Of a stretch of DNA of 43,424 bases, positions 25,146-34,884 are shown piece after piece (the first letter of the stretch is position 1; every line of letters begins with the position of its first letter). Position numbers and translations under genes: made by a program. This stretch comes from an uncultured bacterium (GTDB lineage Bacteria; Verrucomicrobiota; Kiritimatiellia; RFP12; UBA1067), in the NCBI GenBank assembly GCA_902775595.1, contig CACYNF010000011.1:1-43424 (forward strand), in the 5' to 3' direction. The notes below the pieces were generated by a model. It ran no database searches. It was not told the origin of the DNA and saw only the letters and a list, made by a program, of their open reading frames with translations.

Positions 25146-25230
25146 TTTTAGACAGGATTTACAGGATTCACAAGATTAGGTTAAGAGCATTTCCAGCAAT
25201 CCTGTTAATCTTGTTAATCCTGTCTAAAAA
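25146..25230. repeat. Family-I inverted repeat, copy A (85 bp)
   Basis: Left arm starting TTTTAGACAGGATTTACAGG and right arm ending AATCCTGTCTAAAAA flank a short non-conserved middle. Both arms are built of ~9-10-bp units of the type ACAGGATTT. It occupies the gap between the hydrolase stop codon and the DUF2339 start. Confidence 0.9.
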
Positions 25231-26180: not shown

Positions 26181-26265
26181 TTTTAGACAGGATTTACATG
26201 ATTTACAAGATTAAGACAGCTTCCGTTTCCCGCAATCCTGTTAATCTTGTTAATCCTGTCGAAAA
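26181..26265. repeat. Family-I inverted repeat, copy B (85 bp), overlapping the 3' end of the Fic gene
   Basis: Same arms as copy A with a GACAGCTTCCG-type middle. Its left arm supplies the TAA stop codon of the Fic gene (GTCTAA on the minus strand), and the rest is translated as the Fic C-terminus. Confidence 0.9.
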
Positions 26266-27223
26266 CACCTCTCGGCGTCTCTGCGTCTCTGCGCGAGATA
26301 TCATCCGCGTATTTAGTGTTGTTTGCAGCCTTTGACAGCAGATTTGCCGTGGTCGTCTTGAACACATCTTGTCCAGTGAGGCAGACATCCATCAGCCGAG
26401 CGCGGCGGTTCTGCCGCCATTCGTCGAGTCCGAGGTAATAAAATTTTCTCAGCCCCTCGGCAATGACAAACGGCATGATGCCGTTCTTCAGGCACTCCTT
26501 CAGCATCAAAAGCCGCCCGACGCGTCCATTGCCGTCCTGGAACGGATGTATCGCCTCGAACTTCACATGGAAGTCGATGATGTCCTCCAGCGTTTTTCCG
26601 CTCGCCGCATATTCCCTGACGAGCGCCGCCATCCGGCGCGGCACCTCGCTCGCGGGGCAAGTCTCGCGCTCGCCCACCACATTGTCGAGCCGCTTGTATT
26701 CGCCCACGGCAAACCACGCCTTGCGCGAATCGCTCGTGCCGCTCTTGAGCTGCGCGTGAAGACGCTTGATGTAGCTTTCCGTCAACGCCGCGCCAGCCGT
26801 CTCGATGACGATGTCAAGGCAGCGGAAATGGTTTGCCGTCTCCACCACGTCATCCACTGGCGTGTCCTCGCCGAGCGAACCAATGGTCTTGGTCTCGAAT
26901 ATCCACCGCGTCTGCTCGTGCGTCAGGCGGCTGCCCTCCATGTGGTTGGAGTTGTAGGCAAAGTCGATTTGTAGCCGATGGTAGATTCCGTTCTTGGTTC
27001 CCGAACGCTTCTCCGCCTTCAGCACATCCCAGATCGACTTCGCCCTCACCTTGCGCCGCGTGCTCTGCCCTGGATCGACCGCATCCGCCGGTATAAGCCA
27101 GCATCTGCCCTCGATGGTCGCACCAGGAACATGCCCCTTCTGGCACCTTAACCGCACATTACGCGCGGTTTTCCCCCATTTCTTGGCGGCTTCCTCGACA
27201 GAAATATACTTTTCTTTATTCAT
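26183..27223 (-). CDS. Fic-domain protein with N-terminal helix-turn-helix; C-terminus built from repeats
   Basis: 346 aa. Residues ~1-50 look like a DNA-binding excisionase-type helix-turn-helix (ISVEEAAKKWGKTARNVR). The Fic core motif HPFQDGNGRVGR is at residues ~226-237, intact for AMP transfer. An inhibitory-type motif SNHMEG (S/T-x3-E-G/N) at ~92-97 lies before the core, so activity is probably self-restrained. From about residue 306 (DISRRDAETPR) the frame runs through two repeat elements and ends NPV-stop. The start ATG 27223 is chosen because a -10 TATAAT overlaps the further upstream ATG 27235. Function could be toxin-like or regulatory; no antitoxin gene is adjacent. Confidence 0.88.
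   Translation of the reverse strand: MNKEKYISVEEAAKKWGKTARNVRLRCQKGHVPGATIEGRCWLIPADAVDPGQSTRRKVRAKSIWDVLKAEKRSGTKNGIYHRLQIDFAYNSNHMEGSRLTHEQTRWIFETKTIGSLGEDTPVDDVVETANHFRCLDIVIETAGAALTESYIKRLHAQLKSGTSDSRKAWFAVGEYKRLDNVVGERETCPASEVPRRMAALVREYAASGKTLEDIIDFHVKFEAIHPFQDGNGRVGRLLMLKECLKNGIMPFVIAEGLRKFYYLGLDEWRQNRRARLMDVCLTGQDVFKTTTANLLSKAANNTKYADDISRRDAETPRGVFDRINKINRIAGNGSCLNLVNHVNPV
26266..26305. repeat. Second repeat family (GCAGAGACGCAGAG type), copy 1
   Basis: The minus strand reads GCGCAGAGACGCAGAGACGC, directly abutting copy B and inside the Fic frame. A related copy is at 32019-32047, again next to a family-I arm. Confidence 0.8.
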
Positions 27224-27233
27224 GACTGCGGAC

Positions 27234-27242
27234 ATTATACCA
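27234..27242 (-). promoter_or_regulatory. Extended -10 (TGGTATAAT) of the Fic gene
   Basis: TGGTATAAT ends 10 nt before ATG 27223. Transcription would start about 3 nt before the ATG, so the leader is nearly absent and no Shine-Dalgarno is seen. Confidence 0.5.
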
Positions 27243-27371
27243 TGTTTAAGGAAGCGAAACCAGTGGTTTTTGCCATCACTTTTCCTTTTTTCATTTCCGC
27301 AACGCCCAGTGTTTGTTCTTTACGAGTTTTATTAGACAGGATTTTCAGGATTGTTTATACCAAACGCCATT

Positions 27372-27416
27372 AATATTGGCAAGTGTACCTTGCCAATATT
27401 GTATAACATTGGCAAG
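27372..27416. repeat. Three-armed palindrome in the gap upstream of the Fic gene
   Basis: AATATTGGCAAG and CTTGCCAATATT form a perfect 12-bp stem with a 5-nt loop (27372-27400). A third arm, ATTGGCAAG, follows at 27408-27416, so the central arm can pair with either neighbour. No T-run follows on either strand. It could be a regulator-binding site or a repeat remnant. The 410-bp gap 27224-27634 holds only the Fic promoter, this structure, repeat copy C and one short reading frame. Confidence 0.6.
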
Positions 27417-27482
27417 GCGCGCCACACCATCCTAGTGCATGTATCATTTGCTTTTTCACAAGGTCGTTCCTTTCTTTTTTTG

Positions 27483-27569
27483 TTTTAGACAGGATTTACA
27501 GGATTTACAAGATTAAGACAGCTTCCGTTTTCCGTAATCCTGTTAATCTTGTTAATCCTGTCTAAAAAA
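27483..27569. repeat. Family-I inverted repeat, copy C
   Basis: Left arm TTTTAGACAGGATTTACAGG, right arm ending in CCTGTCTAAAAAA, middle CAGCTTCCG-type nearly identical to copy B. On the minus strand it is fully open in frame with a short gene start just upstream (27610). Confidence 0.9.
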
Positions 27570-27610
27570 CTTCCCGCGGCTGCCCACGCAAGTATCAATT
27601 GCATACTCAT
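27485..27610 (-). CDS. Short reading frame: gene-start remnant running through repeat copy C
   Basis: 41 codons starting at ATG 27610 behind an AAAGGGA Shine-Dalgarno. The first 15 residues (MSMQLILAWAAAGSF) resemble a truncated signal peptide; the remaining 26 are repeat-encoded and end NPVNPV-stop. It may be a decayed gene interrupted by the repeat, or a small peptide. Expression is unknown. Confidence 0.35.
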   Translation of the reverse strand: MSMQLILAWAAAGSFLDRINKINRITENGSCLNLVNPVNPV

Positions 27611-27632
27611 GAGTTAGTCCCTTTCGATTTTG

Positions 27633-28088
27633 TTTTAGACAGGATTTACAGGATTGACAGGATTAAGAGCCTGCGGCTGGCGATACACACGGTATTTGTG
27701 TTTGTGCTGAAGAGAGGAAGCACCAAAATTGATCAGAAGCCCATCCTCTATTCCTGTCGCATTAAGATAGTTAACAAGCTGCGCCTCATGGCTGGGATTG
27801 ATCGTCGTTACGGCTTTCAATTCCAGGATGAGTCGATTTTCTACTATTACATCAGCCCGATAGTCTCCCACACGAACGCCTTTGTAATCAACCGCAATTG
27901 GAACCTCCTTTTCGGATTGAATGCCAAGCGCCTCCAATTCGACCATCAAGGCGTTTTTATACACTTCCTCAAGGTATCCAGGGCCAAAGTGACGATGCAC
28001 TGCCATCGCAGCCCCAATGACCTTATAACATATTTCATCAATATCCATAATTCAAAATCCTGTTAATCTTGTTAATCCTGTCTAAAAA
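27633..28088. mobile_element. Family-I element carrying the GxxExxY gene between 32-bp terminal inverted repeats
   Basis: The left arm (from 27633, TTTTAGACAGGATTTACAGG...) and the reverse complement of the right arm (ending 28088, ...CCTGTCTAAAAA) match at 29 of 32 positions. The GxxExxY gene fills the interior. Its stop codon lies in the left arm and its ATG is about 5 bp from the right arm. Solo copies elsewhere in the window have the same two arms but only a short middle, as expected for internally deleted derivatives. No clear target-site duplication was found. Calling it mobile is an inference. Confidence 0.6.
27635..28048 (-). CDS. GxxExxY protein (PDDEXK_3 nuclease-like)
   Basis: 137 aa. 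The family motif is at residues 24-30 (GYLEEVY). A PD-(D/E)XK nuclease signature follows: Asp66 in YRADVIV and Glu76-Leu-Lys78 in LILELKAV. Then come HEAQLVNYL and GLLINFGA, standard for this family of unknown function. The last ~10 residues (ALNPVNPVNPV) are encoded by the left repeat arm, which also supplies the TAA stop. The right arm contributes CAGGATT about 8-13 nt upstream of ATG 28048, perhaps acting as a weak Shine-Dalgarno. The gene is therefore built into the repeat element, not merely near it. Confidence 0.88.
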   Translation of the reverse strand: MDIDEICYKVIGAAMAVHRHFGPGYLEEVYKNALMVELEALGIQSEKEVPIAVDYKGVRVGDYRADVIVENRLILELKAVTTINPSHEAQLVNYLNATGIEDGLLINFGASSLQHKHKYRVYRQPQALNPVNPVNPV

Positions 28089-28129
28089 CTCCCCGCAATA
28101 GCCCGCACAAACATCTTTCGCGCATTCAT
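28082..28129 (-). CDS. 15-residue gene-start remnant ending in the repeat arm
   Basis: ATG 28129 behind a strong AAAGGAG Shine-Dalgarno, reading MNARKMFVRAIAGSF and then a TAG formed at the edge of the family-I right arm. The first four residues equal those of the intact gene at 31597 (MNARKV...). It is either a truncated gene start or a leader peptide of the GxxExxY gene. Confidence 0.35.
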   Translation of the reverse strand: MNARKMFVRAIAGSF

Positions 28130-28152
28130 TTCGTTTCTCCTTTCAGGTTTTG

Positions 28153-28232
28153 TTTTAGACAGGATTTACAAGATTAAGAATGTTGCTTACGTTTCTCTCA
28201 ATCCTGTTAATCTTGTTAATCCTGTCTAAAAA
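28153..28232. repeat. Family-I inverted repeat, copy E (80 bp)
   Basis: Left arm TTTTAGACAGGATTTACAAG, right arm ending CCTGTCTAAAAA. It lies between the gene-start remnant at 28129 and the lipoprotein gene stop. Confidence 0.9.
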
Positions 28233-30804: not shown

Positions 30805-30885
30805 TTTTAGACAGGATTTACAGGATTGACAGGATTAAGAACCTTTCCCGCAATCCTGTTAATCTTGTTAATCCTGTCTAAAAAA
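30805..30885. repeat. Family-I inverted repeat, copy F (81 bp)
   Basis: Left arm TTTTAGACAGGATTTACAGG, right arm ending CCTGTCTAAAAAA, with a short ACCTTTCCCGC-type middle. It lies between a gene-start remnant (30927) and the lipoprotein promoter region. Confidence 0.9.
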
Positions 30886-30927
30886 CCTTCCCGCGACGCC
30901 CCGCGCAAACATCATCCGCGTATTCAT
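30868..30927 (-). CDS. 19-residue gene-start remnant truncated by repeat copy F
   Basis: ATG 30927 behind an AAAGGAG Shine-Dalgarno at good spacing. It reads MNTRMMFARGVAGR, then enters the repeat arm and stops. The start resembles those at 28129 and 31597. It follows the GLQIG-repeat gene. Confidence 0.35.
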   Translation of the reverse strand: MNTRMMFARGVAGRFFRQD

Positions 30928-30958
30928 GAGTTCGCTCCTTTCGATTGCATTGTTGCGG

Positions 30959-31972: not shown

Positions 31973-31987
31973 GCCTCCGCCTTTCTC

Positions 31988-32018
31988 AATCCTGTTAATC
32001 ATGTTAAGCCTGTCTAAA
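31988..32018. repeat. Family-I single right arm, copy G
   Basis: AATCCTGTTAATCATGTTAA continues to CCTGTCTAAA; the left arm is missing. It joins directly to a copy of the second repeat family. Confidence 0.8.
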
Positions 32019-32047
32019 CCTCTGCGCCTCTGCGTCTCTGCGTTAAA
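32019..32047. repeat. Second repeat family (GCAGAGACGCAGAG type), copy 2
   Basis: The minus strand reads TTTAACGCAGAGACGCAGAG; it contains the TAA stop codon of the MFS-acyltransferase gene. It adjoins family-I copy G, as copy 1 adjoins copy B. Confidence 0.8.
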
Positions 32048-34013
32048 ATACACCCACACCCTCGTTATACCACTCTTCAAGTTTCCTATTGAACTCAAGC
32101 CGCGTCAAGCTCGACCACTCCTTCACTCGGTCGGTCAGATCCTCGATGTGCATCGTCACGCGGCGGCGCGGAACGAACGGCGACCAGAAGAACCACAGGA
32201 AAACGCTCTTGATGAAAGTCGGCACGAACGAGGGCGAAGTCTTGCGCCCCTTGCGCGACCAGATCGACCCCCAGAGTCCGCGCGTCCTGACGCCAATGAC
32301 GCGCACGCCGGCGGGCAGATCGCCGCAGATATTGTACGCGAGCTGGCGGGTACCAATTTCCTCATGCTCGGACTCGATCTGGATGTGACCCGACGGATAG
32401 AAGATGACGTTCCCTCCGTCTTCGAGCGTCGACTTCACGATGTCGCCAAGACCACGAGCAATCGTCGCGCCCTTCACGGTAGCGTGCTTGCGAAGATCTG
32501 GCACCGCGACCGCGCCAAGAGTCTTGAGGACATGCGGCGCGACGATGCCGGTGTGGAAGAAGAGTTCGTCCGAAAGCGGCTTGAGGGGAGTCTTCCAGAA
32601 CGTGACGCCAACCAGCATCGGGTCAACCATCGCCGGGTGATTGGGGAGAACGAGAAGCGGTGTTTTCTTGACAGGATTTACAAGATTAACAAGATTTTCC
32701 GGGGTCTGGGGTTTTCCCCCAGCTCTTAATCCTGTCAATCCTGTTAATCCTGTCTTATCCTCGACTTCCACCCGGTACCGCCTTGCGAAGACCCACCGGC
32801 CAACGCAGAGAAGAACCGAGCGGTAGCAGAAGACAAACACGAACGGAGCGACGAGAAAAGCAATCGCGAGCAGCAGAAGAAACGCCTTCGGACCGAACGC
32901 CCAGCTCACGAGCGCGTAGCATCCGCTCGCCACGAGCATGAAGAGAAACGACACCTGGTTGAAATACGAGAGCATCGTGTTGAGCTTCGGACCCTTCACC
33001 ACCTTCTGAATCTCGGCGTCGAACGGCAGCTTGAAGAATCCGAGGTCAAACGCCAAAAGCCCCAGCACGACTCCAAATGCCGTGGGCGAAAGCGCCGCGA
33101 AGTAGAGAACGCCAAGAAGCGCTGCGGCAATCCAGCCCGTGAGAAGCGTCGCGCCAAGAAGAAAGCGCCGCCTGTCGACAAATCCCGCGACGATCTGCCC
33201 TGCGACAATGCCAACCGCCGCACCGCAAAGGAGCACTCCCGTGCCGGTGTCGCTCAAGTTTAGCCCCGCCTCTGCCTTGCCATAGACGAGAAGCCCCATC
33301 TGGAGCATCGCCGCGCCCCACCAGAAAATGGAGAGCGTGAAGATGACGGCATTGAGTCCGTCGTAGCGACCGGCCATTCGGTAGGCACGGGCAATATAGC
33401 GAATCGGGTTGATGGCGTGGAAAGAGCGGTTGAGCTCCTCTTTCGCCCTGACTGTGTAGCTCGCCGCAAGGCCAAGCACGGCGAATGTCGCAAGGCAGCA
33501 GTAGGCGAGATTCCACTCGGGATGGCGGACTTGAAGGTCGGCCACAAGGCCACCCGCCACCGTGCCGAGCAGCACGCCGAGAAACGAGACGCCCTCCATG
33601 CCGCCCATGCCGGTCGAGATTCTCTCCGCGCCGCCGATGTCGCGCACAAGCGCGTACTTGGCAGGCGAGTAGAGCGAGCTTTGAAGCCCCATCAGGAGAA
33701 CCGCGCCGATGACGAACCACGGTGAGTGGAGCGCGAAGCCCGCAATCGCAACGACCATGATCGGAAGTTCCGCCCATTTCGCCGCACGTACGATCCGACG
33801 CTTCGGCCACACGGCGGTCAGCCGGTCGGCAAGCGGCGAACAGAGAATGTAGGGCAGGACGAGCATTCCCGCGACAACACTCGTCAGGAGCGACCGCACG
33901 CGCTCGTCTGCGATCCATCCGATGACGGTCAGGCACGCCAGCGTCTTCAGGAAGTTGTCGTTCAGCGTCCCGAAGAAGTTTGTGACGTAAAGCGGTAAAA
34001 AAGAGTTTTTCAT
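32043..34013 (-). CDS. MFS transporter-acyltransferase fusion (LplT-PlsC type) with an in-frame repeat insertion
   Basis: 656 aa. Residues ~1-400 are an MFS permease of the lysophospholipid-transporter type (LPLYVTNFFGTLNDNFLKTL, SSLYSPAKYALVRDI). Residues ~410-640 are a PlsC-type acyltransferase: NHPAMVD (H-x4-D motif) and NVIFYPSGH in the glycerol-binding position. Such fusions take up and re-acylate lysophospholipids at the inner membrane. Between a strand ending VEVE and the strand leading to NHPAMVD, about 31 residues (~419-450) are encoded by family-I copy H. The start ATG 34013 has GGAG 8 nt upstream. The stop TAA lies in another repeat. Confidence 0.88.
   Translation of the reverse strand: MKNSFLPLYVTNFFGTLNDNFLKTLACLTVIGWIADERVRSLLTSVVAGMLVLPYILCSPLADRLTAVWPKRRIVRAAKWAELPIMVVAIAGFALHSPWFVIGAVLLMGLQSSLYSPAKYALVRDIGGAERISTGMGGMEGVSFLGVLLGTVAGGLVADLQVRHPEWNLAYCCLATFAVLGLAASYTVRAKEELNRSFHAINPIRYIARAYRMAGRYDGLNAVIFTLSIFWWGAAMLQMGLLVYGKAEAGLNLSDTGTGVLLCGAAVGIVAGQIVAGFVDRRRFLLGATLLTGWIAAALLGVLYFAALSPTAFGVVLGLLAFDLGFFKLPFDAEIQKVVKGPKLNTMLSYFNQVSFLFMLVASGCYALVSWAFGPKAFLLLLAIAFLVAPFVFVFCYRSVLLCVGRWVFARRYRVEVEDKTGLTGLTGLRAGGKPQTPENLVNLVNPVKKTPLLVLPNHPAMVDPMLVGVTFWKTPLKPLSDELFFHTGIVAPHVLKTLGAVAVPDLRKHATVKGATIARGLGDIVKSTLEDGGNVIFYPSGHIQIESEHEEIGTRQLAYNICGDLPAGVRVIGVRTRGLWGSIWSRKGRKTSPSFVPTFIKSVFLWFFWSPFVPRRRVTMHIEDLTDRVKEWSSLTRLEFNRKLEEWYNEGVGVF
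32663..32757. repeat. Family-I inverted repeat, copy H, inside the MFS-acyltransferase gene
   Basis: A degenerate left arm (TTTTCTTGACAGGATTTACA) and a right arm (AATCCTGTCAATCCTGTTAA, then CCTGTCTT) surround a GGGGTTTTCCCCC-like middle. The host reading frame stays open through it. Confidence 0.85.
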
Positions 34014-34033
34014 TACTGCTGCTCCCGATTGTT

Positions 34034-34066
34034 TAGCCGTGTAGAACGTGTAGATCGTGTAGAGAT
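34034..34066. repeat. Third repeat family (GTGTAGAACGTGTAGATC type), single arm
   Basis: TAGCCGTGTAGAACGTGTAG and GATCGTGTAGAG, 9-10-bp periodic units, directly after the stop codon of the hydrolase at 34069. A fuller copy is at 34908-34966. Confidence 0.75.
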
Positions 34067-34068
34067 TC

Positions 34069-34884
34069 CTACTTGTCCGTGTCCACCATTGAGACCGGTA
34101 CTCCGTCCACAAAACTCTTGATCAGTTCATAGTAGTTGTCAAAGCCCATGTCGTCGACGAGCGTGTTATGGTCGCCGTCTTCGACTGAGACAAAGCGCTT
34201 CGGCTCGTTGGCAAGCTTGAATAGCGCCTGGCCTTGCGAATACGGAATCACCCTGTCGTCCGTACCATGAATCATCAGCACGCGACACTTCACATCGCCG
34301 ATGCGCTTCAAGTTCGGAAACGGATCGACCGGCAACAGGCGCACACGAGTGAAGACGCGCGGCGCGGAAAGAAAAGGCGCCTCAAGAATAAGCCCGCCAC
34401 AGGGCTTCGTCGCCGCGAGCTCGGTCGCGGGGCCAGTTCCAATGGAAAAGCCGTCGACGATGATGTCCTCGGGCTTGAAGCCGCGCGTCTCGACGAGCCA
34501 GTCATAGAGCCGGTGGACATTCCTGTAGCACCCCGCTTCGTCGGGCGAGCCGTCGGAAAGCCCATAGCCGGGATAGTCGACTGACGCGACCGTGTAGCCG
34601 CCTTCCGCGAGCAGTTCCAGCATATCAAGCGTCGAGAGCGCGTCCTCGGCGTTGCCGTGGCAGCGGATAATCGCCTTCTTGCCACGCTCGGGGCCATAGA
34701 CAATCGCCGCCACCTTCACGCCATTCGTACCGATGTCGACATATCCCCTCGTAGTCACATTGTATCTACCCTTCACAGGATGGAACATCAGTGAATTGAT
34801 GCACCCCGTGCCGATGAGGAGCAACAGCACGACCACGACTGCGATTATCCTCACTGCAGATTTAAAAGCATCCTTGATCATCAT
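34069..34884 (-). CDS. Membrane-anchored alpha/beta-hydrolase (BEM46/YfhR-like)
   Basis: 271 aa. One N-terminal hydrophobic segment (VRIIAVVVVLLLLIGTGCINSL), possibly a lipobox at GTGC, then an alpha/beta-hydrolase fold. The oxyanion strand is IIRCHGNAED, the nucleophile motif GFSIGTGPA, the acid in VLMIHGTDDRVIPYS, and the catalytic His in EDGDHNTL. Resembles serine hydrolases of the BEM46 group; substrate unknown. AAAGGA precedes ATG 34884 (a second ATG follows). Flanked by third-family repeats. Confidence 0.82.
   Translation of the reverse strand: MMIKDAFKSAVRIIAVVVVLLLLIGTGCINSLMFHPVKGRYNVTTRGYVDIGTNGVKVAAIVYGPERGKKAIIRCHGNAEDALSTLDMLELLAEGGYTVASVDYPGYGLSDGSPDEAGCYRNVHRLYDWLVETRGFKPEDIIVDGFSIGTGPATELAATKPCGGLILEAPFLSAPRVFTRVRLLPVDPFPNLKRIGDVKCRVLMIHGTDDRVIPYSQGQALFKLANEPKRFVSVEDGDHNTLVDDMGFDNYYELIKSFVDGVPVSMVDTDK

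Follow-up and report, generated by a model that had tools for sequence, protein, structure and literature searches.

A small GxxExxY gene lies within an inverted repeat whose empty copies are scattered around it, which raises the question of whether the protein has a part in spreading or maintaining that repeat. The stretch of DNA analysed here (43,424 nucleotides, referred to as the window) contains the whole element, arm, gene and arm, at 27633-28087 (455 bp); positions given without a sign belong to features that have no strand assigned. The original prediction viewed this arrangement as an autonomous transposon accompanied by its MITEs and proposed the protein as the enzyme involved.

The window element, its protein and its empty copies

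The arm on the 3′ side of the gene (27633-27664, plus strand) and the arm on its 5′ side (28056-28087, minus strand) are complementary at 29 of 32 positions (91% over 32 nt) and lie 391 nt apart, and the sole open reading frame between them is the GxxExxY protein gene (27635-28048, minus strand, 137 aa), as had been claimed from the letters of the sequence. Each arm is a direct array of three ~9-nt units (GACAGGATT TACAGGATT GACAGGATT) with a T-run ahead, reading TTTTA-GACAGGATT-TACAGGATT-GACAGGATT on the 3′ side and TTTTA-GACAGGATT-AACAAGATT-AACAGGATT on the 5′ side. The earlier assignments of both gene ends to the arms also proved correct: the left arm encodes the stop codon and the final residues LNPVNPVNPV, and the right arm, which begins 7 nt upstream of the start codon, contributes an AGGA to the likely ribosome-binding region. 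An intrinsic terminator is ruled out, since T residues precede the stem and A residues follow it on both strands, which is the reverse of the order in a terminator. In predicted proteins, repetitive tails such as the NPVNPVNPV of this gene are accounted for by insertion of the repeat. Similar low-complexity tails (NPVNPV, DRINKINRI and the like) were observed in the C-terminus of a Fic protein (window 26183-26260), at loci L216 and L257, and in other GxxExxY proteins; where they lie near arms, such tails are translated repeat arms and a source of misannotation.

The window protein matches TIGR04256 (E 3.9e-42; 143 bits against a curated cut-off of 35) and PF13366, PDDEXK_3 (1.3e-40; 139 bits against a curated cut-off of 22). 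Among 69 relatives, Gly24, Glu27, Tyr30, Asp66 and Lys78 are invariant and Glu76 is conserved in at least 90%, so that the PD-(D/E)XK residues proposed earlier (Asp66, Glu76 and Lys78) are supported by conservation as well as by the predicted fold. The predicted structure (pLDDT 91.6) has a PD-(D/E)XK core, and this modelled core fold with its D...(D/E)XK motif places the protein in the PD-(D/E)XK superfamily. The solved structure that best matches the model is SSO0001 (Z 10.7), which we take to be a Cas4; Hjc, an archaeal Holliday junction resolvase, is also among the nearest solved folds (Z 7.7, a value that may reflect merely a common arrangement), and lambda exonuclease is a further PDB structure match. 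A search of the PDB by sequence gave nothing significant, and no sequence relation to Cas4 or Hjc could be detected. No Rfam family matched, nor did PHROGs or PADLOC give a match, and in the open-access literature we found neither reports on the function or repeats of GxxExxY, TIGR04256 or PF13366 proteins or on the arm sequences, nor an enzyme assay for the family. Purifying selection acts on the gene (dN/dS 0.04-0.09 among the three closest genes), and the protein is therefore maintained although the element changes place.

The solo copies with the same arms that had been noticed nearby are present as described, five of them of 79-85 bp and one diverged. Three are simple empty copies (25146-25229, 27483-27567 and 28153-28231), one provides the C-terminus of the Fic ORF (copy 26181-26265; ORF 26183-27235, minus strand), and one (30805-30883) has a counterpart in the relative L204, in which the gene-bearing element stands behind a similar left flank. 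The diverged copy (32665-32760) lies in frame within an acyltransferase ORF (32043-34112, minus strand), another window gene that, like Fic, contains a repeat copy. In addition, there is a single-arm remnant (27330-27361, plus strand), next to which a 115-nt stretch (27404-27518) matches the filled-site flank in the close relative L203, and a single-arm copy (31986-32020, minus strand) beside an arm whose units belong to another class (CGCAGAGG, about 32020-32050). Across the host genome (3.15 Mb, 203 contigs, 86% complete), pattern-search counts give 40 matches to the arm pattern at up to 2 mismatches (0 for the reversed control pattern) and about 13 empty copies with two arms, roughly 75-155 bp long, plus the filled one, and there is one PF13366 gene.

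Two further features of these surroundings were observed. Arms of the other unit class (CGCAGAGA/CGCAGAGG) directly abut CAGGATT copies at window positions 26266-26300 and 32020-32050, and no second GxxExxY gene to match that class was found in the assembled host genome. Moreover, the spacers between copies (window 27568-27632, 28088-28152 and 30884-30944; L204 5900-6570) repeat a short leader (RBS, ATGAATGCGCG..., GCGGGAAGG) directly ahead of TTTTTAGACAGG, which looks as though a recurring gene start had been invaded by the repeat or duplicated together with it.

Arms around GxxExxY genes and their match to the protein

PF13366 proteins were found in 165 of the 289 genomes of the phylum, with up to 12 per genome. 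For each gene, the 260 nt upstream were compared with the 400 nt downstream; the best ungapped inverted repeat gave the arm score, and a score of at least 15 counted as a pass. In a phylum sample of 111 GxxExxY genes, mostly best-scoring ones, 76 had flanking arms, compared with 2.3% for swapped flanks, 1.1% for neighbouring ORFs of similar size and 0/23 for ParE toxin genes of the same class. A second set of 80 close relatives, drawn from several phyla in GTDB, had arms at 60 of the 75 usable genes; swapped flanks passed in 22% there because most of these genes have one arm class in common. When the two sets were merged, with a few genes counted in both (e.g., L098 and L242), 138 of 189 genes from at least six phyla had arms; loci L032-L061 were not oriented to the gene in this scoring, which hardly affected the score, and they were re-oriented for the comparison with the proteins. 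In the comparison that had been suggested, GxxExxY genes are hence flanked far more often than other genes (138 of 189); about 27% of them have no detectable arms. As a separate observation, locus L313 (2055-2527, genome G213) has matching arms about 400 nt apart, with neither an ORF nor a convincing gene remnant between them.

The arm units vary by gene (CAGGATT, CACAGAG, CACGAAA, CGCAAAG, CGCCAAG and others), and arm 5-mer similarity follows protein identity, with a Mantel r of 0.52 (2000 permutations: sd 0.023, maximum 0.09) that falls to 0.49 after protein pairs above 70% identity are removed. GxxExxY genes of different subfamilies within one genome mostly have different arms. Within the subfamily of the window gene, arms of the GACAGGATT type flank proteins of about 50% identity from six phyla, namely Verrucomicrobiota, Acidobacteriota (Geothrix), Chloroflexota, Bacteroidota (Spirosoma), Planctomycetota and Pseudomonadota, and sister proteins of a gut Bacteroidota branch have their own unit variant in common. 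When further members were searched for with a profile of the subfamily, all 12 testable loci, 10 of them new, had the window arm class, and L330, a gene outside the subfamily, had another one. In the protein tree the phyla are intermingled (17 label changes, where 7 would be the minimum), as expected if the element passes between hosts; paralogy and misbinning can add to this mixing.

The two arms of a gene were also compared with each other, each arm being anchored independently of its partner. Over 27 positions, the two arms of one gene agreed at 81% and arms taken from other genes at 64%, with 71% as the highest permutation value. What agrees is the unit variant (CAGGAT or CAGAAT) and the distance from unit to unit (8 or 9 nt). 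Spacer bases show weak agreement (0.60 and 0.45, compared with 0.47 and 0.31) and often fail to pair, and G-U-compatible arm differences are not in excess on the gene strand (80 versus 110 in the mirror). Taken together, these patterns speak more for iterated units that are recognised as such than for an RNA stem with perfect pairing. The gene and its arms thus form one cognate unit. The co-variation also argues strongly that the GxxExxY protein recognises its arm units, and it could partly reflect joint inheritance without binding.

Repeat number was compared with gene presence by using a strict 27-mer arm pattern and, in the phylum genomes, by calling the subfamily gene above 140 bits. The pattern occurs in 19 of the 289 phylum genomes. 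At least one strict arm was found in 6 of about 40 phylum genomes with the subfamily gene and in 13 of 249 without it, a weak difference (p 0.03). At least three strict sites were present in 12 of 49 genomes known to carry the gene versus 6 of the 249 gene-negative phylum genomes (p 1e-6), and in 9 of 46 versus 3 of 244 after removal of the window's genus; the 49 and the 249 genomes are of different taxonomic composition, and up to two of the sites come from the filled element. Examples include G361 (Candidatus Muproteobacteria), with 30 arm sites, many of them as close inverted pairs, and Spirosoma arboris, with 9 strict arm sites. The proposed correlation therefore holds in so far as the repeats are commoner where the cognate gene is present, but it fails for several repeat-rich genomes in which no subfamily gene exceeds 140 bits (37 arms in G204, 12 in G142, 11 in G184 and 11 in G254). 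All of these are draft genomes, and gene loss after spread or draft gaps could account for them.

S23 genes in the same layout

Intervening sequences (IVS) with S23 genes resemble the GxxExxY elements in that a small ORF stands alone between inverted repeats; they differ in their protein, an unrelated four-helix one, in a period of 7 nt, and in that their best-known copies lie in rRNA. The window element itself was rejected as a member of this group because its protein is not the S23 four-helix protein. Among 30 S23/IVP (PF05635) genes from the same phylum (L143-L172), 14 had inverted arms, compared with 2% for swapped flanks. A 7-nt period was present in the flanks of a third of the S23 loci and essentially no other period was seen, whereas that of the GxxExxY arms is 9 or 8 nt; S23 units include AGTGGCT, TTAGGGG, GAGCTTA and GAATCGT, and the S23 locus L220 (3339-3951) is organised likewise. 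For the Coxiella intervening sequence, terminal inverted repeats and heptameric direct repeats preceding the S23 ORF have been reported, with no generalisation in the passages that concern it (PMC4990558).

The S23 loci bear on the possibility that the arms are a hairpin repeat mobilised by other machinery, with GxxExxY genes as cargo that serves another purpose such as defence or repair. Genes of an unrelated fold in the same layout would be expected of such passengers, as would the plentiful solo copies in genomes without the subfamily gene. Nevertheless, the arm unit follows the protein subfamily across phylum-level distances, and the difference between a 7-nt period for S23 and 8-10 nt for GxxExxY implies that a single common repeat with interchangeable cargo does not account for the layout, and we regard a passenger role as unlikely.

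A second possibility is a function at the transcript level, where the arms would form a stem for processing, stability or autoregulation as in 23S rRNA intervening sequences and the protein would be an RNase acting on it. The anatomy matches that of IVS elements with S23 ORFs, in which the terminal-repeat stem is reported to be cut by RNase III (PMC4990558), and one arm of the window gene adjoins the start codon. However, the arm differences mentioned above do not have the G-U excess of a conserved RNA stem, spacer positions are often unpaired, the order of T and A residues is opposite to that of a terminator, Rfam has no match, and solo copies occur within and between many genes. A role at the RNA level is accordingly judged to be improbable.

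Most surprising among these observations is that two unrelated small proteins each lie within inverted arrays that have a unit length of their own. The two kinds of element may, as a tentative idea to which we give somewhat less than an even chance, represent one class of mobile repeats in at least six phyla, in which each element encodes a protein that reads its inverted arrays of short direct units, the length of the unit being set by the fold of that protein (about 9 nt for the PD-(D/E)XK GxxExxY proteins and 7 nt for the four-helix S23 proteins). If this is true, GxxExxY would represent a novel type of transposition enzyme, one whose protein-to-DNA recognition code is readable. The 7-nt parallel also makes an old question, the role of S23 in rRNA intervening sequences, testable in the same manner.

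Insertion sites and movement of the repeat

Empty copies have been inserted in frame in particular lineages. The diverged copy in the acyltransferase ORF lies between RYRVEVE and PLLVLPNHPA; it is present in the relatives L174 and L204 and absent from L178-L181, and L175-L177 have different sequences, some of them visibly short-tandem hairpins, in the same linker. In genome G204, a UxuA-like (mannonate dehydratase) gene (L318, around 1957-2053) contains an in-frame solo copy that is absent from eight readable orthologues, including one in the window's own genome, and its loop is similar to the one in the acyltransferase copy. No target-site duplication was visible at these two in-frame sites, and a variable linker was replaced at both. 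On a side note, the linker of the MFS-acyltransferase fusion (window 32665-32760; L174-L181 and L204) contains varied classes of inserts in different genomes and is a natural in-frame insertion hot spot.

The gene-bearing element also differs in position among close relatives: in L203 (97% identical protein) and L204 (91%), it occupies two other positions within the same syntenic block. Since repeats and short leader modules recur in this block, the copies could also have recombined with one another, without transposition. Sites that contain the repeat and sites that lack it, whose comparison in close strains had been suggested, both exist, with the caveat that the surroundings of the window are rearranged, perhaps by recombination between repeats.

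A classical autonomous transposon with MITEs, in which the gene-bearing element itself transposes and multiplies, would have inverted ends and empty copies and would be found at different places in three close relatives, all of which was observed. In contrast, the 28 pairs of GxxExxY genes from the same genome have a median identity of 43% and a maximum of 85%; such copies are old and diverse, and gene-bearing copies are not amplified within genomes. With only a single copy of the gene in the window's genome, repeats in genomes without the cognate gene, and no target duplication seen, the strict form of the original transposon claim is not sustained, and we consider this explanation highly improbable.

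GxxExxY proteins as candidate nucleases of their repeats

The best-known case of a nuclease that accompanies hairpin repeats is the REPIN/RAYT system, and the GxxExxY element is filed here as belonging to this general kind. In both, a nuclease gene is flanked by its repeat and many two-armed inverted short copies lie elsewhere; the nuclease is single-copy, co-resident nucleases are distinct, and the nearest relatives are found in other genomes. RAYT nucleases have been described as remaining single-copy while the hairpins multiply, and where several occur per genome, each is distinct and has its closest relatives elsewhere (PMC3116915). The differences are that the RAYT enzyme is an HUH (Y1) nuclease and the GxxExxY protein a PF13366 member with a PD-(D/E)XK model, that the repeats there are REPs and the GxxExxY arms arrays of 8-10-nt direct units, and that copies of the GxxExxY repeat also occur in frame inside genes. 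Membership in REPIN/RAYT was rejected, as the protein lacks the HUH tyrosine (Y1) nuclease feature.

On balance, we think it rather probable that GxxExxY proteins are the cognate nucleases of hairpin-like repeats, in a REPIN/RAYT-like system in which a PD-(D/E)XK enzyme replaces the HUH enzyme. The heritable unit would consist of a PD-(D/E)XK nuclease gene flanked by two inverted arrays, each of about three direct 8-10-nt units. The protein probably binds these units successively, as iterons, both on the arms of its own element and on gene-less two-armed copies, and probably nicks or cuts at the bound arms, after which repair or re-insertion would carry short copies to new sites. The gene-bearing unit would be kept as a single copy per subfamily per genome and move between species, and the gene would gain by being an arm-bearing copy itself. 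From the predicted fold and the analogy, we infer that the enzyme may spread the repeat, and likewise only infer its cleavage, the chemistry of spread and DNA (not RNA) as its substrate.

GxxExxY proteins are present in more than half of the phylum genomes sampled. Their cognate arms offer a concrete candidate substrate, and the many subfamilies naturally paired with their own DNA units provide material for decoding how PD-(D/E)XK nucleases recognise sequences.

To our knowledge, no linked nuclease gene is known for the Rickettsia palindromic elements, whose sequence is different from that of the GxxExxY repeat. These elements are similar in that short palindromic copies are found in frame in unrelated protein genes (PMC10969869).

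Finally, two of the few neighbouring control ORFs with high arm scores (L072:734-1434 and L123:6859-7556) are a transposase gene that looks like RAYT by its sequence and has REP-like hairpins of its own; this system of a known kind serves as an internal positive control.
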